DNA from: Hysterangium stoloniferum
Lineage: Eukaryota; Basidiomycota; Agaricomycetes; Hysterangiales; Hysterangiaceae
Length of the DNA: 64,000 bases
Reading direction: 5' to 3'
Assembly: GCA_015178975.1 (NCBI GenBank)
Contig: WHVD01000146.1
Coordinates: forward strand, 1-64,000
The notes under the pieces are model-generated. The model searched no databases and had not been told where the DNA came from. It saw nothing but the letters and a program-made list of their open reading frames with translations. Positions 101 through 53,240 of the stretch are shown here, one piece after another; position 1 is the first letter of the stretch; each line of letters opens with the position of its first letter. The translations under genes and the position numbers were made by a program.

Positions 101-3100
101 TTGTTTTTTAGATACAAAATTCACGCAAAAAAATTCTTTGTCAACTTATTCGATAAAATCCCGTCCGGTCTCCGCCTCTTCGATGGCACAAGTAATTCGG
201 TTGTTACCCAAGCTTGTGATTTACCCATCAGTTTCCCTTGTGGAACATCTCAATTGGTCACTTTCTATGTGACCCAGTTAGACTCAAGTTGCTCGGTGGT
301 TCTAGGACATAACTGGCTTACCCGCTACAATCCGTTGATTGACTGGATAGCTAACAGTATAACTTTCCGGACTCCCGCGGCGACCGAGGAAACTGCGCCT
401 GTCTCGGCCTCCACGGCACCCATGGCCTTCCCGGCACCTGCAGTCTCAAGGACTCCTGTGATCCCTACGGCACCTATAGCTTCCCCGGAACCCACGGCAC
501 CTCCGTCCATTTCTCTGATTAATGCTGCAGCTTTTATTAGGGCTTCAAAAATGGATGGTTCCCAGGCGTTCACTATCAACTTAAAAATTGATGAAGCAAC
601 TGGACGTTTCTCAACCCCAGTATCCGAATCTGAGCAAGCTGCTGACCTAGAAGGCATCCCGGAGAAATACCATGACTTCGCGGATGTTTTTAGCAAGCGA
701 AAAGCTGACCGGCTTCCGCCTCACAGAGAATACGACTTAAAAATCGATCTTGAAGATGGCGCCCAGCCACCCCTAGGACATATTTACCCGCTTTCGTCCA
801 CGGAACTATCCGCAATCCGTGATTTCCTGGATGAACATTTGTCCATAGGTTTTATTCGACCCTCAAAGTCTCCATTTGGAGCACCTGTTTTGTTTGTCGG
901 AAAAAAGGATGGATCCCTTAGACTATGTGTTGATTTTAGAGGACTCAATGCTGTCACCAAAAAGGACAAATATCCACTCCCACTTATATCTGACCTGCTC
1001 GATGCTCCGCGGAATGCCCGGATTTACACCAACATAGATCTCAAGCACGCCTATCATTTGGTCCAGATTGCCGCGGGTGACGAATGGAAAACCACTTTTA
1101 GAACCCGCTATGGGGCCTTCGAGTGGTTGGTCATCCCTTTTGGACTCACTAATGCCCCGTCTGTTTTTCAGCGTTTTATCAACGACATTTTCTCCGACAT
1201 GCTCGATGTATGCGTCATTGTGTACTTGGACGACATTCTTATCTACTCTGAGAATCCCGCGGAACACAACAAACAAGTCCGTGAGGTTCTCCGTAGGCTC
1301 AGACAACATGGTTTATTCGCAAATGGTAAAAAATGTACTTTTGACACGGACTCCGTGGAATACCTAGGTTTCATGATGGGACCCGATGGACTCCGCATGG
1401 ACGAAACTAAAGTGCAAGTCATCAAAGATTGGCCCGAACCCCGAAAAGTTAAAGATATACAATCCTTCCTCGGCTTTGCCAATTTTTATAGACGTTTTAT
1501 CCGTGGATATTCCGACATCACGGTACCCCTTACCCATCTTACGCGTAAGGGTACTCCGTGGAACTTTAACGATAAGTGTCAAAAAGCTTTCAATCTTTTA
1601 AAAAATTCTTTTTCCACAGCTCCTATTCTGTCGCATTGGAAACCGGACTTCCCGCTCATTGTTGAAACGGACGCCTCCGACTATGCACTTGGAGCCATTC
1701 TCTCTATCCAGGACTCTGACGGAGAAGTCCATCCCGTGGCTTTTCTGTCCCGGACTTTTACCGGAGCAGAGCTCAACTACGACGTTCATGATAAAGAACT
1801 TCTGGCAATTTTTTCAGCTTTCAAAGCGTGGCGACACTATTTGGAAGGTTCAGGAGCTCCTATTGACGTTGTAACAGATCACAAAAACCTGGAATACTTT
1901 TCTACCACAAAACTCTTGACCCGTCGGCAGGCCCGCTGGTCTGAATATCTCTCCGCCTTCAACATGATTATCCGTTTTCGACCCGGCCGTCTCAGCGGCA
2001 AACCCGACGCTTTAACTAGACGATGGGACGTCTATCCTAAAGAGGGGAGCAACAACTATGCAACGGTAAATCCGCACAACCTGAAACCTATTTTTACGAA
2101 TCAACAACTTACCGCATCGGTCCGTGCAACTTTCCTCGTCAATCCCATTGTCCGTGGAATTATCATTATGGATATCGAGAAGTTACATCAGGATATTCTA
2201 TCGGCAATTCCCCTAGACCCCATTACTAAAGCTCATCTAGACAATCCCGTGGACCCCGATCAACCTCGGTGGTCTCTTGATCAACATGGTTTCATTAGAC
2301 TTGACGATAGGATCTATGTACCGGACTCCGACGGCCTCCGCCTCAGGATCCTTCAATACAAACATGATCATCCACTCTCAGGACATTTCGGGTACAACAA
2401 AACTCTATCATTAATAAGAAGAGAATATACTTGGCCCGGACTCCGTGGATTCGTTAAGCACTATTGTAAATCTTGCACTACTTGTCCCCGCTCGAAATCT
2501 CAGCGACACAAGCCATACGGCCTTTTGAAACAACTCCCGGTACCGGAACACCTGTGGAATTCTATATCTATGGATTTCATTGAACACCTACCGGCTTCCG
2601 AAGGCTTTTCCGCTATTCTAGTCGTTGTTGACAGATTCTCAAAACAAGGTATATTCATCCCTACTTATGATACAATTACGTCCGTGCAGTTAGCGGAACT
2701 TTTCATCATCCACGTATTTTCCAAGCACGGAGTTCCATCCCACGTGACTTCCGATCGAGGATCAGAGTTCGTGTCTCACTTCTTTAGATCCCTCGGAAAA
2801 TCCTTGGACATGACATTACATTTCACGTCCGGACATCACCCGGAAGGTGACGGACAAACCGAACGCGTCAACCAGACATTGGAACAATACCTCCGCGTAT
2901 ATTGCAACTATCAACAGGACAATTGGAAAACCTTGTTACCACTTGCAGAGTTTGCTTACAACAATGCACCCTCGGCCACTACTCGCGTTTCCCCGTTCTT
3001 TGCAAATAAAGGATATAATCCAAACATTACAGTACATCCAGAACGAAATCTCGCCTCTGTCCGTGCTCAAGAGTTCACCACGGACCTCCACGAGCTCCAC

Positions 3101-3652
3101 GAGGAACTCCGGACTGCAATATTGTCCGCCCAAGAGCAATACCAACATTCAGTGGACAAACACTGGATCCCGCCACCAAACTTCAAGATTGGTGACCGTG
3201 TTTATGTCAAAGCTCAATTCTTCCGGACTACCCGTCCGTCAAAGAAGCTTGCTGAAAAATATTTAGGTCCCTTTGAAATTATCGCACAAGTAGGTTCAGT
3301 TTCTTGGACTCTACGGCTTCTGGATAGCATGCGCGCGGTACACCCGGTATTTCATGTCTCTATGCTAGAACCTTGTACTGCTAACACTATCCCGGATCGC
3401 GTGCAATCTCCGCCTCCTCCTGTCGTCATTGACGGAGAACCCGAGTTTGAAATCTCGCAGATTTTAGATTCAAAAATTGACAAGCGTCGACGCACTTGTA
3501 AACTGCTTTACTTGGTCAAGTGGGCGGGTTACGAGGGCACCGATGAAGAAACCTCATGGATTTTGGCCACAGAACTCGGTAATGCCACGGAAATCGTTAC
3601 TGACTTTCATACAGCTTACCCACTCAAACCTGGACCATTATCGTCTCTCTGA
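101..3652 (+). CDS. pol: Gypsy pol polyprotein: RT, RNase H, integrase, chromodomain
   Basis: This 1183-codon open frame copies element RNA and integrates the cDNA. Visible landmarks, numbered from 101: RT catalytic YLDD near residue 375; RNase H VETDASDY near 520 and DHKNLEYF near 595; an integrase zinc finger (two His, then CKSCTTC) near 755-795; integrase core Asp in SMDFIEH near 824, SDRGSEF near 885 and the Glu in GQTERVNQ near 920; chromodomain YLVKWAGYEGTDEETSWI near 1135-1160. The aspartic protease motif LIDSGSTHCFLD sits upstream at 42-120 in another frame. The switch falls at an A-run near 125-133, and a TGA lies in the protease frame at 21-23. So the element is probably inactive, or the indel is a sequencing error. 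The frame ends about 200 nt before the convergent antisense gene. Confidence 0.95.
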   Translation: MFFRYKIHAKKFFVNLFDKIPSGLRLFDGTSNSVVTQACDLPISFPCGTSQLVTFYVTQLDSSCSVVLGHNWLTRYNPLIDWIANSITFRTPAATEETAPVSASTAPMAFPAPAVSRTPVIPTAPIASPEPTAPPSISLINAAAFIRASKMDGSQAFTINLKIDEATGRFSTPVSESEQAADLEGIPEKYHDFADVFSKRKADRLPPHREYDLKIDLEDGAQPPLGHIYPLSSTELSAIRDFLDEHLSIGFIRPSKSPFGAPVLFVGKKDGSLRLCVDFRGLNAVTKKDKYPLPLISDLLDAPRNARIYTNIDLKHAYHLVQIAAGDEWKTTFRTRYGAFEWLVIPFGLTNAPSVFQRFINDIFSDMLDVCVIVYLDDILIYSENPAEHNKQVREVLRRLRQHGLFANGKKCTFDTDSVEYLGFMMGPDGLRMDETKVQVIKDWPEPRKVKDIQSFLGFANFYRRFIRGYSDITVPLTHLTRKGTPWNFNDKCQKAFNLLKNSFSTAPILSHWKPDFPLIVETDASDYALGAILSIQDSDGEVHPVAFLSRTFTGAELNYDVHDKELLAIFSAFKAWRHYLEGSGAPIDVVTDHKNLEYFSTTKLLTRRQARWSEYLSAFNMIIRFRPGRLSGKPDALTRRWDVYPKEGSNNYATVNPHNLKPIFTNQQLTASVRATFLVNPIVRGIIIMDIEKLHQDILSAIPLDPITKAHLDNPVDPDQPRWSLDQHGFIRLDDRIYVPDSDGLRLRILQYKHDHPLSGHFGYNKTLSLIRREYTWPGLRGFVKHYCKSCTTCPRSKSQRHKPYGLLKQLPVPEHLWNSISMDFIEHLPASEGFSAILVVVDRFSKQGIFIPTYDTITSVQLAELFIIHVFSKHGVPSHVTSDRGSEFVSHFFRSLGKSLDMTLHFTSGHHPEGDGQTERVNQTLEQYLRVYCNYQQDNWKTLLPLAEFAYNNAPSATTRVSPFFANKGYNPNITVHPERNLASVRAQEFTTDLHELHEELRTAILSAQEQYQHSVDKHWIPPPNFKIGDRVYVKAQFFRTTRPSKKLAEKYLGPFEIIAQVGSVSWTLRLLDSMRAVHPVFHVSMLEPCTANTIPDRVQSPPPPVVIDGEPEFEISQILDSKIDKRRRTCKLLYLVKWAGYEGTDEETSWILATELGNATEIVTDFHTAYPLKPGPLSSL

Positions 3653-3854
3653 CCGCACTCCGCAGACCCCGTGTTACGTTTGGACTCATTTTCACTATTC
3701 CCTGTCGCCCTATGTCTCTCTTTGCTTTTACAGGTTCTGACATGTCTTGTCAAGTCTTTAAGCCGACTCTCTGCGGACTTTGGCTTTGACTTTTATTTTT
3801 ATGTTTTTCATGCTTTACTTTTATGTTCAATTACTTTTATTTCTATATTACTTT

Positions 3855-4836
3855 TCAGTCTACATTTATGGGACTATGCTTTTTCCCCTCTGCCTCAGCT
3901 ACCTCCTCAGGGAGCTCCGCGACCTCCGCGGCAACCCCGTCCTCATCCGATCCGGCATCCTCGGAACTCCCGACTTGTGGCTCTTCAAAGACATAGCCGC
4001 CATACTCCGCCAGGAACTTCCAAAACTCCTCGCAGAGTCCGGACAGCTCCTTTGCCACCACAATTTGGACCTTGTTGCTCTTCCGGAGCAACTCGTTTTG
4101 GGCCTCGATGCCCTCGGCGATCCGTCCAAGGACCTCGTCCAACCCGGACAACCCGTCCGTCCCGCTTATGTCTCGCGCCCCGGATCCCGTGGCCTGCTTG
4201 TGCACAAGCGAGCACCTCACCTTGAGGTGCGCGCATTGATAACATCCCGGCCCCCGGCCGGCCTTTCGGTTGCATTCCGTGTTCCAGTCGTTGCAACTGG
4301 AACACCGCGGTTCATTCCGCGTCGGAAGACGGACTGGCGCCGCCTTCCTTGCCTTCTGTTGAATTGATCAGTCTCCGCAGGTATTCCATGGACATGAGAC
4401 CTACCTTTTGGGGGCTCTCTGGCTCCCCCTCGGACTCCGACTCCACCTCTGTCGCTTTGCGCTGAAAATCACAAGTCAGTAAAAGTCGACAAGTGAATTT
4501 GGGACTTACTTTTCCCGCAACAATGGCGGCCCTCTCCGCGGCCAACCGGGCTTTCTCCGCAGCCACCCGGGCGTTCTCCGCGGTCACTCGCGCAGCCTCC
4601 TCCGCCTCACGTTCCCTCTCCTTTGCGGCCTCTTCCTCCGCGGCCAATGCTTCCTGGTACTCTCTGTCCAGGGCCTCCTCAGCCTCCCTCGCCTCTCTCT
4701 CTGCTGCTTCACGAAGCTGGCGCTGCTCTTCTCGCCGCGCCAACAATTGGGCCGCCGTCCACGGTGCCCGATACGGAGTGCCCGTGGAGGGCCCTGCTGT
4801 CGGCATTGGCTTGCGTGGTGTTGGTTTTGGTCCCAT
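3855..4836 (-). CDS. Antisense accessory gene of Gypsy A: coiled coil plus Zn2Cys6-like protein (3 exons)
   Basis: Three exons on the minus strand: 4836-4510, 4461-4405 and 4355-3855. The introns are 48 nt (GTAAGT...TTCAG) and 49 nt (GTAGGT...AACAG). The second intron changes frame, so only the spliced product (294 aa) is continuous. The protein starts MGPKPTPRKP and has a long Ala/Glu/Arg-rich coiled coil (about residues 25-105). A six-cysteine segment follows near residues 143-175, CSSCNDWNTEC then GCYQCAHLKVRC, with spacing CX2CX6CX9CX2CX6C. That fits the fungal Zn(II)2Cys6 spacing, although the usual basic residues of the first half are missing. A second amphipathic helix (LDEVLGRIAEGIEAQ) and an acidic tail ending INVD come last. 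It is convergent with pol and lies upstream of the 3' LTR. A role in DNA or RNA binding or element regulation is inference. No named family is recognised. Confidence 0.82.
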
Positions 4837-4886
4837 AGTGACGAAGATGGGGGTAATAAAGAAGAAGAAATTTCTATTTTTTCAAT

Positions 4887-4896
4887 TTTTTATATA
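4887..4896 (-). promoter_or_regulatory. TATA box of the antisense accessory gene
   Basis: TATATAAAAA on the minus strand lies about 50 nt upstream of the ATG at 4836, inside the element and outside the LTR. The relative A2 has TATAAAAATTTG about 45 nt upstream of its ATG, both preceded by GAGCC and followed by TTGAAAA. The conserved position argues for a dedicated promoter. Confidence 0.65.
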
Positions 4897-5033
4897 GGCT
4901 CGTCGCGTTTGAACCTTACCTTCCAGATCACATGACTCTTTGACACATACGTGTAACCGACATGACTTTTGACACATGCGCGTAGCCGACAAGAACCTTA
5001 TTTAGGTCTAGAGCCTCCTTGGGACTTCGGCAT

Positions 5034-5046
5034 AAAGGGAGGATAC
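5034..5046 (+). other. Polypurine tract of Gypsy A
   Basis: AAAGGGAGGATAC directly abuts the first base of the 3' LTR. The same 13 bases border the LTR of Gypsy D at 46843-46855 on the other strand. Confidence 0.8.
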
Positions 5047-5872
5047 TGTTACGACCGGACAAATCCCGCCGGACTCCGGGCACTAACTCGTACGCCCCCA
5101 CGCGCTACAAGCACCAATCGTCTGTTTATAGGATTTCCCGCCGGACTCCGTTACGTCAAGACTCGTTACGTTCGACCTCATTGAGACACATATCAGTCAC
5201 CGGACTTCCCCCGGACCCCGTCTCTGTCTATGTCCATCTTCGTCCCACACATCAGTCACCGGAACCCGCTTAGAATCCCGTCACTGCTCTAATCGAGCCC
5301 CGTTCCCGTTTTAGTCAAATGACCTGTCACGATTTAGGACTCCGCTCCCGCTCCGTTTCCCGTTATGGGTTATGCTTTGTCACGATTCAGACTCCGCTCC
5401 GTTCCGTCCCGTTCCTAACACCAATTTGGTGTTTACTATTCCTGTTTTATGTTTTTCTCGTTTCGTCTCATTATTACTGGATTCGGTATGTCATGCATTC
5501 CACGGTCTATATAAACTGGCAGATGTTGTACATACAATCCAGTCAGAAAATTAGCTTAGATTCCCCCCAGTAATCTAAATACATTTTCCTCTCTAAACCC
5601 TACTCTTATCAGACCGCTCGCACTAGTCGGAGCCCACAGGCTCCGGCACATCTATCTCTCTCGACTATCTCGATTCACGACTCACGACCTACGACTCACG
5701 ACCCACGACTCACGACCCACGAACCCCCGCCTGGACTCCCCGGGATTCCCGTCCGCCTGTCTGAAATTGGACAATACGATCTAGCGAGGGCGCAGCCTAT
5801 AAGCTGAAGCCAAGTCCTACCGGATATCCCGCGGGTTTCTCCGGAAACCCGGCCTGAGTGTGTATCCTAACA
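5047..5872 (+). repeat. 3' LTR of Gypsy A (A-family LTR, 826 bp)
   Basis: It starts TGTTACGACC and ends CCTAACA. A TATA box (TATATAAACT) lies near 5507. A conserved core at 5784-5817 (CAGC-CTATAA-GCTG-AAGCCAAG) and a palindromic GGGTTTCTCCGGAAACCC near 5833-5850 lie close to the 3' end. The boundaries are supported by two A-family solo LTRs in the window that have target-site duplications. Confidence 0.92.
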
Positions 5873-11833: not shown

Positions 11834-12826
11834 ATGGGACCCAAACCAATGCCCAGATGCCCCCCCACCAACACAACCACCCACAGTATACCCATGGGGC
11901 CTGGATACTGGGCCCCTTTCATTACTGCTCAAATTATTGAGCAGCATGAAGAGCAGCAGCAGCAATGCAAGGAGGCTGAGAGGAAGGTGAGGGAGGAGGA
12001 TGAGGAGCTTGAGAAGGAGTATCAGGCAGCATTGGCCACAGAGAAAGAGGGGGAGTGGAGGAAATGGGAGGAGCAGGAGGCTGTTAGGAAAGCAGCAGAA
12101 GAAAAAGCAGAGGCCCCATATGTTGTGGCAGAGTGAATGTGGATGCCCAGGCCATCTACAGGGAAGGTAAGTGTATTATTTTTATTTTTAACAAGTTCTT
12201 ATTGACAGAGTGTACTAGTGAAAGCCATGGATGCAGACAGAGTTGGAGCCCAAAGGAGAACCTGGGACTCCCCAGTACAAAGCAAGTTTTCCACAGGTGT
12301 TTCAGGCACTGACATTGTGAACAGAAGCCTAGAAAAGGGCTCCCAACTTGTCTTGAGTCAAAAAATGACCAGGGTGTGGACTGTTTCCAGACATCCACTT
12401 GGGACCTGGGTTGCTGCCCTTGCTCCCACCTTAAGGCAAAATGTTCTTTGGTGTATGAGGCCAGTGCCCACAAACTGGGAGATTTAAGGGGCCATGGAGA
12501 GGCCATGGAGAGGCCAGGTGCCTTTGAGGAGGCCTTGGGGTGGATAGTGGTGGGCATAGATGCCAAAAATGCCTTATTGGAGAAGGGAAACCAGGTACAA
12601 AATGCCATCATGGAGAATCACTGGGAGCTCTGTGGGGAGCTCTGGGAGTTGCTGGACAACTACTCATTGGTTGTCCAGGATAGATGGTACCTATGAGGCA
12701 TCAGAGAGTGGGGAATCAGAGGAGTCTGGAGAGTCTGTGGGGTCTATGGGGTCCAAGGAAGTACAGGAGTTGGTTCAGAAGCAGAAGGATGAGGATGCCA
12801 AGCATGATGTAATAGAAGTAGATTAG
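11834..12826 (+). pseudogene. A2 copy of the antisense accessory gene (decayed)
   Basis: It starts MGPKPMPRCP, like MGPKPTPRKP in A, followed by a Glu/Gln-rich coiled coil. A GTAAGT donor at about 12167 and a TTGACAG acceptor at about 12207 mark an intron at the position of the first intron in A. Downstream GCCPCSHLKAKCSLV (near 12410-12455) aligns with GCYQCAHLKVRCSLV of A; the first cysteine half is degraded. Then come FEEALGWIVVGIDAKNALLE and an acidic tail ending VIEVD-stop (A ends INVD-stop). Frames change at least twice and a TGA at 12134 ends the first block, so it is a pseudogene. It is convergent with the A2 pol, whose stop lies 160 nt away. Confidence 0.78.
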
Positions 12827-46414: not shown

Positions 46415-46842
46415 TGTCACAAATCGATTATTCTTCGATAGAGTCAAATAATATTCTACTAATCGAACTCAAAAGCCTCATTCGACGAAGTATATATTCA
46501 CCCTGTCGATGAAGTAAGAGGCTATTACCAGTCACGAGAACTCACGGAAGTATTTGTCGAAGAAGTTACGACAAGTTAGATTACTAATATCACTAATATA
46601 CAGATATTTCAACTGACTTCCCTCGCTCCTTTCATACCCCTTTTATGCTTTTCATCATATCGTTATGACTATGTTATGAACTAATTATGAAATCATATAT
46701 GACGTCGAAATGAGACATGTCGAAAGAGATTCAATGGTGTTGAATAATGTTCAGTTTTGTTGAGTTGAATTCGATAGGTCGAAGAGTTGTCGAAAGTTAC
46801 CTTTGAATGTTTGTGACAATGTGACATGTGATGGTTGTGACA
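46415..46842 (-). repeat. 3' LTR of Gypsy D
   Basis: 428 bp, TGTCACAAATC to TTGTGACA. The first five bases overlap the GGATG duplication of the X insertion. The polypurine tract AAAGGGAGGATAC (minus strand, 46855-46843) abuts it. Confidence 0.9.
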
Positions 46843-46922
46843 GTATCCTCCCTTTGTGACCGAGCCCACGAGGTTGGAGTTTGAAAAGTTTTTTCATCAT
46901 CTATTTTCGTGTTCCTCAATCA

Positions 46923-47752
46923 ATGTCTGATATAGAAGTCGATCAACTCGAATCAGGATCCGAGTTTTTGGATTTTGAGGATAGGAATGTGGTTGTTGAT
47001 GTGGTTGGTAAGTTGATTTCTGGGATTTCTTTAAAATTAGTTAATTAGTTATTTTTTAGAAGAAATTCCCAAAAAGTGGATAGAAGATTGCGAAGAACCG
47101 TTCAATAAGGCGACTCGTAAGGGAATTGGGATGCAATGGGAATTTGAGGCAAAATCAGAAAATTCATAATTTTTTGTTTTTGTCAAATTTTTGTCAAATT
47201 TTGCTAATTTGTTTTTTCCAGTTGCACTATGTGTTTTAACACGAATTTCGTGTGCAAGAAAACTAACACGTCGTTGAATTGCGATCGGTGCAATCGGTTG
47301 CATCAGGCCTGTTACTGGACCATAAATAGGCCAGCCAGAAAACCGCATCAAAACCGAAAAAAGAGTTGAAATGTGATCGAAGAATCGGAAGACGAAAACG
47401 AAAATGGTAGTCCAGAGATTCGAAAGCTTGGACAAAGGAAAAATAGTCGTCGCAACGTCATGTCGAGAATTTTTCTAGACGGTCGAGAAGGTCGGAACAT
47501 CGGTCAGATAAGGACTTGGAGAAAGAGATAAAATCGATTGGCGAAAGGATGTCGAAATTAGAGGAAACCATGGAAGATTTCATCGGTGAGGTGAAAGCGT
47601 TCAGAAAGGATTTTTCGGTTTTGTCAAAGAAATTGGTCGAAAGTGGTGATTTTAATGAAGAGACTGACCTTAGCGTTAATAGTGGGAGATTTAGGGGGGC
47701 ATGGTTGGATAAGGTGGTGGAATTGAGAGAGAAAGGGATTGAAGATTTGTAG
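46923..47752 (+). pseudogene. Antisense accessory gene of Gypsy D with Zn2Cys6-like motif
   Basis: It is convergent to D pol and next to the 3' LTR, as in element A. Exon 1 (46923-47007) starts MSDIEVDQLESGSEF and ends at a GTAAGT donor; the acceptor TTTTTTAG is at 47059. Exon 2 reads EEIPKKWIEDCEEPFN. After a second acceptor (TTTTCCAG, 47221) comes CTMCFNTNFVCKKTNTSLNC then DRCNRLHQAC: CX2CX6CX8CX2CX6C. The C-terminal part (47516-47752) is a coiled coil, EKEIKSIGERMSKLEETMED, ending GIEDL-stop. A TGA just after the cysteine motif, a frame change near 47470 and an unresolved junction before exon 3 show that this copy is broken. The shared position, introns, six cysteines and C-terminal helix make homology with the A gene likely. 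Confidence 0.75.
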
Positions 47753-47867: not shown

Positions 47868-50800
47868 TCATAGAAGATTTGGATATTTTTGATGAAATTC
47901 TTCGATAAGGTCGAAAGCATGTTCGAGATCTTGAAATCCTAACCATGAAGTTTCTTCATCTGTTCCTTCGTAACCTAACCAAGCAACTAAATATCGTAAT
48001 GAACCTTTATATCTTTTATCGAATTTTGAATCCAAAATTTCTCGAATTTCATATTCTGGTTCTTCTTCAACATAAATTGGTGGAGGAGGAGGTTGTTTTC
48101 GATTTTGGAAAGTATTTGGATAAAATGGTTCTAACATTGAAACGTGAAAGACGGGATGAATTCCTTTGAGATGATTGGGAAGTTTTAATGTATAAGAATG
48201 AGATCCTGGTTGAGCAATGATTTTGAATGGGCCTAATAATTTTTCCGATAATTTTTTCGATGGTCGAGTCGTTCAAATGAAGTCGGATCATATGAAGACT
48301 TGAGAATGGATCGGAAAGTCGAAAGACTCTTTTCGATGTATGTCGGAATATTTTTGATAACGTATTTGCACTTTCTGGATATTTGATTTGAGATGTTTAT
48401 GTAGAGCTTTGAGATCTGTCGTATAATCGCGAGCTAGAGCGGAAGCTAGATCTTTTTCAGGGTGAATTTCTAACAATGGATGATAACCTTTATTAGCAAA
48501 AAATGGTGTTTCACCAGTTGTTTTGGAAGGTGCATTGTTGTAAGTGAATTTGGCTAAAGGAAGTAATTCAGCCCAATTGTCTTGTTGATAATTGGAATAT
48601 ATTCGTAAATATTGTTCGAGGGTTTGATTAACTCATTTGGTTTGTCCATCGCCTTCAGGATGATAACTGGAAGTGAAATGTAATTTCATGTCAAGTGCTG
48701 TTCTGAGAGATCAAAAGAAATGCGACACGAATTCAGATCCTCGATCAGAAGTTACATGACTGGGGACTCCATGTTTTGAAAAGACATGTAATACGAAAAG
48801 TCGAGTGAGTTCGGGAGTGTTGATCGTAGTATAAGTTGGAATGAATATTGCTTGTTTTGAAAGTCGATCGACAATTACGAGTATTGAGTCAGAACCATTC
48901 GAGGTTGGTAATTGTTCGATAAAATCCATCAAAATTGAATGCCATGGTCGAAGAGGGATTGGAAGTTGCTTAAGTAATCCAATGGGTCGATGTCGTGGAG
49001 TTTTTGATTTTGTACACATTACGCATGATCAAATAAAATTTTGAATATCTTGTTGGAGTCGTGGCCAAAAGAAATCTTGATATATTGTTCAATACATTTT
49101 CGTTTGACTGAAATAGCCTGCAGTAATATGATCGTGTCGTGATTGAAGAACTCGAAGTCAGAGAGTTTGATAATTGGGGACTTAAATTCTGTTTCTGAAA
49201 CATAAAAAGTCTTGGTTGTTCTTTTGCCAATCTTCTTCGGTACTGTTGGAAATCTGTCGAATCTTGTCGAGAGTAAATTGATCTTCTTTTTGAGCTTTGA
49301 ATATACCTTTCAATAGTTGATCCGTATCCATAATAAGAGTAGCTTTTCTCGCTATTGGAAGATAATATGTTGCACGTAAGGAAGCTTGAATTTGCTCATT
49401 TGTAAATACCGGTCGAAGATTAGTCGGATTCTTTTTCGAATAGTCAGGTTCATTTGGATAAACGTCATTTCTTCTGGAAAGAACATCTGTTTTCAAATTT
49501 AGTTTTCCCGGTCGAAATCGAATAATCAAATTAAAGGTTGATAAATACTCTGCCCATCGAGCTTGTCGTCGAGACAAAATTTAAGTTGTCACAAAATATT
49601 CGAGATTCTTGTGATCTGTTAAAACTTGAATTGGTTCTTTTGTTCCTTTGAAATAATGTCGCCAAATTTTGAAAGATTCGAATATTGCCAATAATTCTTT
49701 ATTGTAAGTGTCATAGTTAATTTCGGAGGTTGAAAGAGTTCTTGAATGATAAGCAACTGGATGAATCTCGTTATCGGGAGTCTGCATAGAAAATATTGAA
49801 GCTATAGTATGATCAGAAGCATCAGTTTCGAGTATAGGTTTATAGTCTGGATTCCAATGAATTAAAATTGGAGCTGTAGTAAATTCTTTTTTCAAATAGT
49901 TAAATGCATGTCAACATTTTTCGAGTAAGTCGAGTCAATGGTAAAACAATTTCAGAATAACTTGGAATAAATCTTCGATAGAAATTCGCGAATCCTAAAA
50001 ATGATTGAATGTCATGGACTTTTTGTGGTTCGGGCCAGTCTTGAATAACTTTGATTTTTTCTTCATCCATATATACACCTTGAGGAGAAATAACATATCC
50101 TAGAAACTCGATACTGGTTTTGTGAAATTCACATTTTTCGGGTTTTGCAAATAATCGATTTTGTTGAAGCCGTCGAAGAACTTCTCGAATTTGTCATAAA
50201 TGTTCTTCAAGATTGTTGGAAAATATTAGTATGTCGTCGAGATAGATAATTACCCAAATATCAAGTAAATCTGAAAATATTTCATTCATTAATTGTTGAA
50301 AGGTTGCCGGAGTGTTGCACAGTCCAAAAGGCATAACCAAATATTCGAAAGATCCATATTGAGTCCAAAAGGCTGTTTTCCACTCATCTCCTGGAGCAAT
50401 CCTAACTAAATTATAGGCACCTCGGAGATCGATTTTCGTAAAATATTTTGCTGTTCGAAGTCGATCCAAAAGATCAGGAATTAAAGGAAGTGGATATCGG
50501 TTTTTCCGTGTAATTTTATTAAGTCCTCGATAGTCGACGCAAAGTCGTAGGCTTCCATCTTTCTTCTTAATGAATAAAATTGGTGCGCCAGCGGGAGATT
50601 GCGACGATTGAATCAACTTCTTCGAAAGGTTCTCTTGGAGATATTCTCGTAGCACTTGAAGTTCTGTCTCAGATAACGAATAGATCGGACCCATAGGTGG
50701 AATAGTTCCTTCTTCTAATGGGATAGCGTGATCATAACTTCGGTGTTGAGGTAAAGCTTCAGCTTCCTTTTTGTCGAAAACATCCGAGAAGTTGGAATAT

Positions 50801-51561
50801 TCGGTCAGAATGTTCGGTATGTCAAATGAAGTCGAAGTCGTAGTTTTTGCACCAGAGGCCTTACAAGTCTTGAAAGATTCGTTGCGAATAAAGACCACAA
50901 AGGTTTGAGAGTCTTTTGCTTTCGCAGCTCATAAGAAAGTCTTTTGATTGACTATGTTGATATTCGGATTAACAGTCTCGGATTTCGATTTTTCACAGAT
51001 TTTCTCAGATGTCGATGAATGACTCGCTGAGGTCAAAGCATGCTTCTCTTCCAATAACATTTCAATTGACGGTTGAATCGGATTCGGATTTGTCGAAGGT
51101 GTTGAAGTAGGTTCAAATGATATACGGCCAGATCGCCAGTCAATCACAGGATTGTATTGCTTCAGCCAGTTGAGTCCTAATACCACTTGACAAGACAAGT
51201 CGAGATTGGTTAGAAAGAATTGTAATTCTTGAATTTGCCCAGATGGAAAGTAAACTTGTAATGTAGTCATATATGTGATTTGTCCTGATGTCAGAGTTGA
51301 TCCGTCGATTAATTTTAATGATAACGGATTTTTCAATTGGTCAAAAGATAGATTATTTTGTCGTGTAAACGTTTTGTCTATAAAAAGATGACTAGATCCT
51401 GAATCAATTAATGCTTTCATTTTCGGAATTTTTTTCGATTTAAGTTCAATAATTAAAGAATCAGAAATTGTTACCACTCGTAATATTACACAGGAATCTT
51501 TTTCAGCGTGATCGAGTCTTCTTCGATACTCTTCACACACCTGAAGAGTATCCCTTTTCAA
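47868..51561 (-). pseudogene. pol: Gypsy D pol, broken by stops and frameshifts
   Basis: Pieces in order on the minus strand: protease MKALIDSGSSHLFIDKTF (51430-51370); [14 protein letters not shown] (near 50230) and [14 protein letters not shown]; RNase H LETDASDHTIASIF (near 49830) and TDHKNLEYF; integrase core SILMDFIEQLP, VIVDRLSKQAIFIPT and TSDRGSEF (49000-48730); chromodomain RYLVAWLGYEGTDEETSWL (near 47950). The catalytic motifs survive but at least six frame breaks separate them, so it cannot make a polyprotein. It ends 115 nt before the convergent accessory gene. Confidence 0.92.
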
Positions 51562-52814: not shown

Positions 52815-53240
52815 TGTCACGAATCAATTATTCTTCGATAGAGTCAAATAATATTCTACTAATCGAACTCGAAAGCCTCGTTTGACGAAGTATATATTCG
52901 CCCTGTCGATGAAGTAAGAGGCTATTACCAGTCGCGAGAACTCACAGAAGTATTTGTCGAAGAAGTTACGACAAGTTAGATTACTAATATCACTAATATA
53001 CAGATATTTCGACTGACTTCCCTTGCTCCTTTCGTAGCCCTTTTATGCTTTTCGTATTGTTATGACTAGGTTATGAACTAATTATGAAATCATATATAAT
53101 GTCGAAATGAGACATGTCGAAAGAGATTCGATGTGTTGAATAATGTTTGGTTTTGTTGAGTTGAATTCAATAGGTCGAAGAGTTGTCGAAAGTTACCTTT
53201 GAATGTTTGTGACAATATGTGACATGTGACGGTTGTGAAA
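52815..53240 (-). repeat. 5' LTR of Gypsy D
   Basis: 426 bp. A TATA box CATAAAA lies at 53047-53041 (minus strand), and the predicted start of transcription is at about 53014. The LTR is almost identical to 46415-46842 apart from CpG-type transitions. Confidence 0.9.

Follow-up and report, generated by a model that had tools for sequence, protein, structure and literature searches.

Antisense open reading frames between pol and the 3' LTR (aORF-3R) are described for plant Gypsy elements, i.e. gene23 of maize Grande, RIRE2 of rice and ORF4/TRP28 of Retand from Silene; an own promoter is reported for gene23, and a nuclear or DNA-binding role has been suggested for genes of this type (PMC7264820; PMC11963269). 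The first-pass annotation of the locus described here had mentioned antisense reading frames in some plant Gypsy elements, which is borne out by Grande, RIRE2 and Retand (PMC7264820). The locus belongs to Hysterangium stoloniferum, an ectomycorrhizal fungus of the Hysterangiales (PMC7550596), and its antisense gene shares with the plant frames the place, the orientation and the presence in most copies of the element (PMC7264820; PMC11963269). It differs from them in its basidiomycete host, in two small introns that have been kept in the copies compared, and in a six-cysteine cluster, which by description sets it apart from the TRP28 or SMC-like domains of the plant proteins.

For fungi, the antisense gene brtn of the Boty-like elements of Botrytis cinerea was reportedly described by Zhao et al. 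in 2011. These are Gypsy elements in which brtn lies antisense (PMC7264820, PMC8365987, PMC4227169, PMC5987419), and the likeness, known here by description only, consists in an accessory gene placed antisense in a Gypsy element of a fungus, with a chromodomain in gag-pol (PMC4227169, PMC8365987). The annotation knew of no fungal case with this domain; for antisense genes of fungal Gypsy elements in general, however, there is prior art, brtn being one. A figure legend in a 2010 survey of Gypsy elements with a chromodomain in fungi mentions a further ORF, of unknown function (PMC2864245). In the open-licence literature, as judged from titles and beginnings of abstracts among the matches listed, no spliced antisense gene with a cysteine cluster was found in a fungal element. 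A further parallel is HBZ of HTLV-1, which is spliced, lies antisense at the 3' end of an LTR element and encodes a nuclear regulator of the bZIP type. The H. stoloniferum gene is likewise antisense, at the 3' end of an LTR element and, by prediction, spliced, whereas it encodes a cysteine cluster instead of a bZIP and has its TATA-like box outside the LTR. Retroviral antisense genes are also mentioned in two of the sources on plant elements (PMC11963269, PMC7264820). Antisense accessory genes are already known from plants and from Boty, and the H. stoloniferum gene is a variant with introns and a cysteine cluster.

The window, i.e. the whole stretch of 64,000 nt that was analysed, lacks gag and the 5' LTR of its first element (element 1), because the contig begins at window base 1. 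Element 1 is a chromodomain Ty3/Gypsy element (chromovirus) with all required pol domains; the Pfam matches above cut-off are RVT_1 (9.8e-36), RT_RNaseH, Integrase_H2C2 (3.4e-19), rve and Chromo (2.3e-06). The features of the window are summarized in Table 1.

Table 1. Features of elements 1, 2 and 3 in the window, in order of position
Feature	Position	Strand	Remarks
pol of element 1	101..3652	+	RT, RNase H, integrase, chromodomain; Pfam matches
AATAAA signals 3' of the antisense stop	3792..3841	-	3841-3836 and 3797-3792
Antisense gene, exon 3	3855..4355	-	holds the six-cysteine cluster; C-terminal part probably helical; stop codon at 3857-3855
Antisense gene, intron 2	4356..4404	-	49 nt, GTAGGT..AACAG; restores the frame
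Antisense gene, exon 2	4405..4461	-	acidic
Antisense gene, intron 1	4462..4509	-	48 nt, GTAAGT..TTTTCAG; branch-like CTGAC at 4479-4475
Antisense gene, exon 1	4510..4836	-	ATG; Ala/Glu/Arg-rich, probably helical
Conserved region upstream of the antisense gene	4837..5046	-	210 nt from ATG to LTR; polypurine tract at the LTR end
TATA-like box	4896-4887	-	TATATAAAAA
Adjacent repeats	4991-4963 and 4962-4933	-	29/30 bp; 27 of 32 aligned columns alike
3' LTR of element 1	5047..5871	+	TGTTACGACC..CCTAACA
Decayed antisense relative, element 2	11834..12663	+	opposite pol remnants 16743-12989 (-)
3' LTR of element 3	46415..46840	-	5' LTR partner 52815-53238, 93.7% identical
Antisense gene of element 3	46923..47752	+	exons 46923-47007, 47060-47165, 47222-47752; window copy decayed
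pol of element 3	47880..51333	-	50-55% identical to pol of element 1

The genome of H. stoloniferum (111 Mb, 554 contigs) was searched for further copies, and the antisense gene gave 735 first-look candidates, of which the best 40 were scored. Thirteen copies have both LTRs; these are mostly about 8.1 kb long with LTRs of about 820 bp (7.1 kb in L009 and 9.0 kb in L011), and a 5-bp target duplication was recognized by eye in nine of them. In the two copies for which ORFs were listed (L010 and L017), gag and pol have sense orientation, and the polypurine tract comes after the antisense gene. As had been proposed for the window, the gene adjoins a Gypsy pol also in other copies, and pol is on the opposite strand at all 20 large loci and at 17 of the 20 diverged loci. 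Three diverged loci (L034, L029 and L030) carry an antisense gene with no pol match in the stretch fetched, and are perhaps truncated or nested; at L034, LTR sequence follows immediately behind the antisense gene.

Two introns of 48 and 49 nt, of which the second corrects the frame, and an own TATA box had been proposed for this gene. Splicing as predicted from the sequence indeed joins three exons to a reading frame of 294 aa, and a TATA-like box was located upstream (Table 1). The frame depends on removal of intron 2. The length of intron 1 is divisible by three, and the window copy has no stop in it; in L010 and L017 the first ORF, if unspliced, ends at 122 aa. The gene was compared in 27 copies, i.e. 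the window copy (also L001) and 26 further loci, with L008 excluded as the same copy as in L015. The GT..AG borders of both introns are kept in all 27 copies (intron 1, 48-58 nt; intron 2, always 49 nt), and the antisense frame is intact in 22, one of them with 297 aa, and broken in L003, L009, L014, L016 and L022. In the six full elements with 0-10 mismatches between their LTRs (gaps uncounted; L015, L017, L018, L020, L021 and L023) the frame is intact throughout, and in the seven with 13-22 mismatches it is broken in L009 and L014.

Relatives were searched by shared short words in the protein database, in viral contigs and in one fungal genome. The protein database yielded only three relatives, all from H. 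stoloniferum (in one search the best 8000 candidates were scored). As judged from their sequences, P0003 appears to have been spliced at the same points as here at both introns, P0002 at intron 1 only, and P0001 was cut differently. No relative was found in the viral contigs, where one pattern scan gave 0 matches and another 87, none of them confirmed.

Sense-strand ORFs over the same stretch were rejected as alternatives: a 195-aa frame is stop-free in 7 of 27 copies and a 184-aa frame in 2 of 27, while a 134-aa frame, stop-free in 25 of 27, was taken as a probable shadow of the codon usage of exon 1.

Over all pairs of the 27 copies, dN/dS of the antisense gene is about 0.28 (0.26 for shared and 0.36 for single changes), and the variable sites at codon positions 1, 2 and 3 number 35, 43 and 75, of 294 each. 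In a common set of 15 copies, dN/dS for shared and single changes is 0.12 and 0.33 for pol, and 0.28 and 0.33 for the antisense gene; the latter is under constraint, but for shared changes this is weaker than in pol. The gene is accordingly real, as had been claimed, on the evidence of this selection pattern, the intron borders in 27 of 27 and the frame in 22 of 27 copies, and a chance ORF is ruled out by selection and splice-site conservation. Relatives do stand beside other Gypsy copies and dN/dS is not near 1; these were the two points at which the first-pass annotation could have failed on sequence.

The 20 diverged loci were hand-picked among the best matches to P0001 and are no random sample; 17 of these were aligned over the gene (L029, L030 and L032 were left out). 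Most of the aligned copies carry stops, frame shifts or lost intron borders; for example, the acceptor of intron 1 is lost in L038 and that of intron 2 in L040, the donor of intron 2 is poor in L048, and L035 gave no alignment upstream of exon 2. A branch-like CTGAC or CTAAC is found in both introns of most diverged copies. Between subfamilies (nine diverged copies compared with the window), dN/dS is 0.28 for transversions (288 non-synonymous, 241 synonymous) and 0.41 for transitions (522 non-synonymous, 643 synonymous), and the transversions are distributed over the codon positions as 95, 128 and 306.

A tblastn search with pol of element 1 revealed three pol regions in the window, each with such an antisense gene, and the gene is thereby present in three families. 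The genes of elements 2 and 3 had been overlooked in the first reading of the window. The relative in element 2 is 46% identical to the gene of element 1 over 91 columns in the exon 1 part and 32% over 154 columns in the exon 2-3 part, with intron-1-like borders at 12167-12208 and a TATA-like CCTATAAAAATTTGAA upstream.

In element 3, the C-terminus of pol is alignable with the chromodomain end of pol of element 1, and the antisense gene has three exons and two introns, with CX2CX6CX8CX2CX6C opening exon 3. The exons were assigned by a systematic search for splice models on two copies, which gave 55 and 99 models, and the model chosen for L052 has GTAAGT and GTAATT donors and keeps the conserved frame; an earlier reading, with no in-frame join of exons 2 and 3, was superseded by this search. 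In 11 copies of this family (window and 10 loci), variable sites in exon 3 number 44, 33 and 105 of 179 by codon position, and dN/dS of exon 3 is 0.17 (shared changes) and 0.26 (single changes). Exon 3 is open over 178 aa in only 2 of the 11 copies, and the intron 2 donor is present in 7, having been lost in the window copy and three others. Homology of the proteins of families 1 and 3 is proposed from position, orientation, exon plan and cysteine spacing; the comparison of their profiles (E 8.4e-4 at a probability of 24% over 41 columns) is no more than suggestive.

Between the LTR and the antisense ATG of element 3 lie 82 nt (46841-46922) with no TATA-like box recognizable by eye, and its promoter may therefore lie within the LTR. 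Related LTRs are present in the window at 7447-6637 (82% identical) and 57053-56241 (87% identical). Neither has a match to pol or to the antisense gene next to it, and they are perhaps solo LTRs of sister families; a genome search with the LTR at 7447-6637 gave 5083 first-look candidates, of which the best 40 were scored.

The protein of element 1 contains a region of 74% Ala, Glu and Arg (residues 27-106), six cysteines (146, 149, 156, 166, 169 and 176; CX2CX6CX9CX2CX6C), and, C-terminal to these, a stretch that looks helical. Splicing of intron 2 would join PQK to KARK and thus form KR..KKARK, by eye a nuclear-localisation-like stretch. The pattern of the Zn(2)-Cys(6) cluster is CX2CX6CX5-12CX2CX6-8C, and the spacing in elements 1 (X9) and 3 (X8) fits it. 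As in the Gal4 type (PF00172), six cysteines at permitted spacing are thus followed by a probably helical segment, whereas the cluster of element 1 is below the cut-off in its natural order, its modules are possibly swapped, and its first module is not basic between the second and third cysteines, where classic Zn2Cys6 clusters are.

Against PF00172 (cut-off 21 bits), the whole protein scored 10.4 bits and the cluster alone, in natural order, 12.6-17.2 bits, in two stretches in three of four scans and in one stretch in the fourth; the best stretch placed the first triad on profile positions 16-31, i.e. on the second half. With the modules swapped over a short linker, the window copy reached 23.6 bits and three other variants of family 1 reached 19.8, 16.1 and 11.8, all in single stretches; over a longer linker the window copy scored 19.7 bits in two stretches. 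Gal4 as control scored 48.5 bits in natural order and 35.8 when swapped, the latter in two stretches, and the element 3 cluster gave no Zn_clus match in either order. The cluster of family 1 may thus be permuted, which is a fair hypothesis and no finding. Of the Zn2Cys6-like protein that had been proposed, the spacing stands; formal membership in the family does not, as natural-order scores fall below the PF00172 cut-off, and the order of the modules is perhaps reversed. No Pfam family above cut-off was found for the antisense protein, and a sequence search of the PDB gave nothing below E 0.3.

Upstream of the gene, the repeat pair stands 36 nt further up than the TATA-like box. Regional identities to the window were obtained from 11 of the 20 diverged loci, i.e. 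those in which the region is retained, near-copies of the window being excluded. By median identity the upstream region (91.9%) is conserved as well as the pol end (90.7%) and better than the first 120 nt of the LTR (79.3%), with 86.3% behind the gene; within the gene the median is 74.3% for exon 1, 87.5% for intron 1, 87.7% for exon 2, 69.4% for intron 2 and 78.7% for exon 3. In transversions per site (nine loci, nine regions), the upstream region is lowest by a narrow margin (0.0235; exon 2, 0.0253; pol, 0.0256). Intron 1 exceeds exons 1 and 3 in identity, which speaks against a simple reading; decay of CpG in the GC-rich exons may explain it, because intron 1 and exon 1 have similar transversion rates (0.086 and 0.092), the rate of exon 1 being second only to that of intron 2.

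Part of the constraint on the upstream region must be due to the polypurine tract; yet the middle of the region, at 92.6% identity, is conserved as well as the polypurine end (92.5%). Elsewhere in the full element L020, LTRs included, nothing matches the region at better than E 0.3, and direct action on LTR promoters, which had been suggested in the first-pass annotation, thus gains no support from the one element tested. The transcript probably starts within this conserved region, at a predicted promoter of its own.

We propose that the gene encodes a nuclear regulator of the element itself, made from a spliced antisense gene under its own promoter and probably binding DNA; as a whole, this explanation seems to us evenly poised between right and wrong. 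A third gene would be expressed beside the 3' LTR, on the strand opposite gag-pol, and its transcript would be spliced twice to yield a protein of about 294 aa that enters the nucleus. In it, a long charged helix would be combined with a basic stretch of nuclear-localisation-like type, completed by splicing of intron 2, with a six-cysteine cluster that would bind zinc and resembles Zn2Cys6 (the order of its halves is perhaps reversed), and with a helical C-terminal part through which dimers could form. Its most likely role would be to bind DNA and regulate the element, and its likeliest target the repeats that precede the gene's TATA-like box. The simplest reading is autoregulation, because among candidate targets the repeat pair next to the gene's own promoter is the best conserved; this regulation would set the level of antisense RNA against the 3' end of the element, and its likely purpose would be regulation of the element's transcription or silencing. 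Introns in a retrotransposon gene are normally lost at the RNA stage; here they would survive reverse transcription because the gene is antisense to the genomic RNA, in which they stay unspliced. The genomic RNA carries the gene's complement, and the protein could therefore come only from a separate antisense transcript.

The main alternative to a classical promoter regulator is an anti-silencing factor, i.e. a nuclear protein that relieves host DNA methylation or silencing by small RNAs, which we consider unlikely. In old copies, C-to-T change at CpG seems to have produced many of the stops (by eye, uncounted), as expected with host methylation, and exon 1 is among the fastest-changing parts (74% identity), as the interaction surface of an arms race might be; however, the transversion dN/dS of 0.28 gives no sign of positive selection, decay of CpG inflates the divergence of the GC-rich exons, and Pfam offers no family above its cut-off for the protein. 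An arms race in exon 1 is not claimed, since CpG decay in GC-rich exons suffices for its divergence and dN/dS is low.

Somewhat less likely again is a helper in the particle or after reverse transcription, which would bind nucleic acid for packaging, DNA synthesis or nuclear import rather than for transcription. The basic stretch, the cysteine cluster and the helices would suit this role too, and nuclear import and accessory roles are discussed in a review of plant antisense ORFs (PMC7264820), but a separate antisense transcript would uncouple the level of the protein from that of Gag-Pol, and the spacing of the cysteines differs from that of the nucleocapsid CCHC.

Copy-number control, in which further insertions of the family would be held back by the antisense RNA or by the protein, appears improbable: control by RNA only, for which the transcript would indeed be antisense to the 3' part of the element and for which double-stranded RNA has been raised as an idea in plant elements (PMC7264820), leaves the selection at protein level unexplained, and the family is abundant, with the 735 gene candidates and 5083 related-LTR candidates noted above (best 40 scored in each case). 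A functionless piece of a host gene that was captured, or an ORF due to chance, might be suggested by the restriction of database relatives to three H. stoloniferum proteins, but can hardly be entertained, being already contradicted by purifying selection within and between subfamilies, by the kept splice sites and by a matching gene in a distant Gypsy family.

Returning to the element-encoded regulator, the full proposition is that Gypsy elements of this mushroom lineage have long carried a spliced antisense regulator gene with a circularly permuted Zn2Cys6-type cluster, that it acts in a manner like HBZ, that its introns are safe only as antisense, and that none of the other regions compared around it is as conserved as its promoter, which contains tandem binding sites; with all parts taken jointly, we put this forward as tentative and consider it more apt to fail than to hold. 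The function of the antisense accessory genes of LTR retrotransposons is described as not determined in the review (PMC7264820). H. stoloniferum provides a case with introns, with selection measured in two families, with young copies that are nearly identical, and with a candidate target under sharp conservation. An intron placed antisense in a reporter gene is used for detecting retrotransposition, and the antisense gene would be a natural version of this reporter, in which the protein comes solely from the gene's own transcript and the introns persist through the RNA stage.
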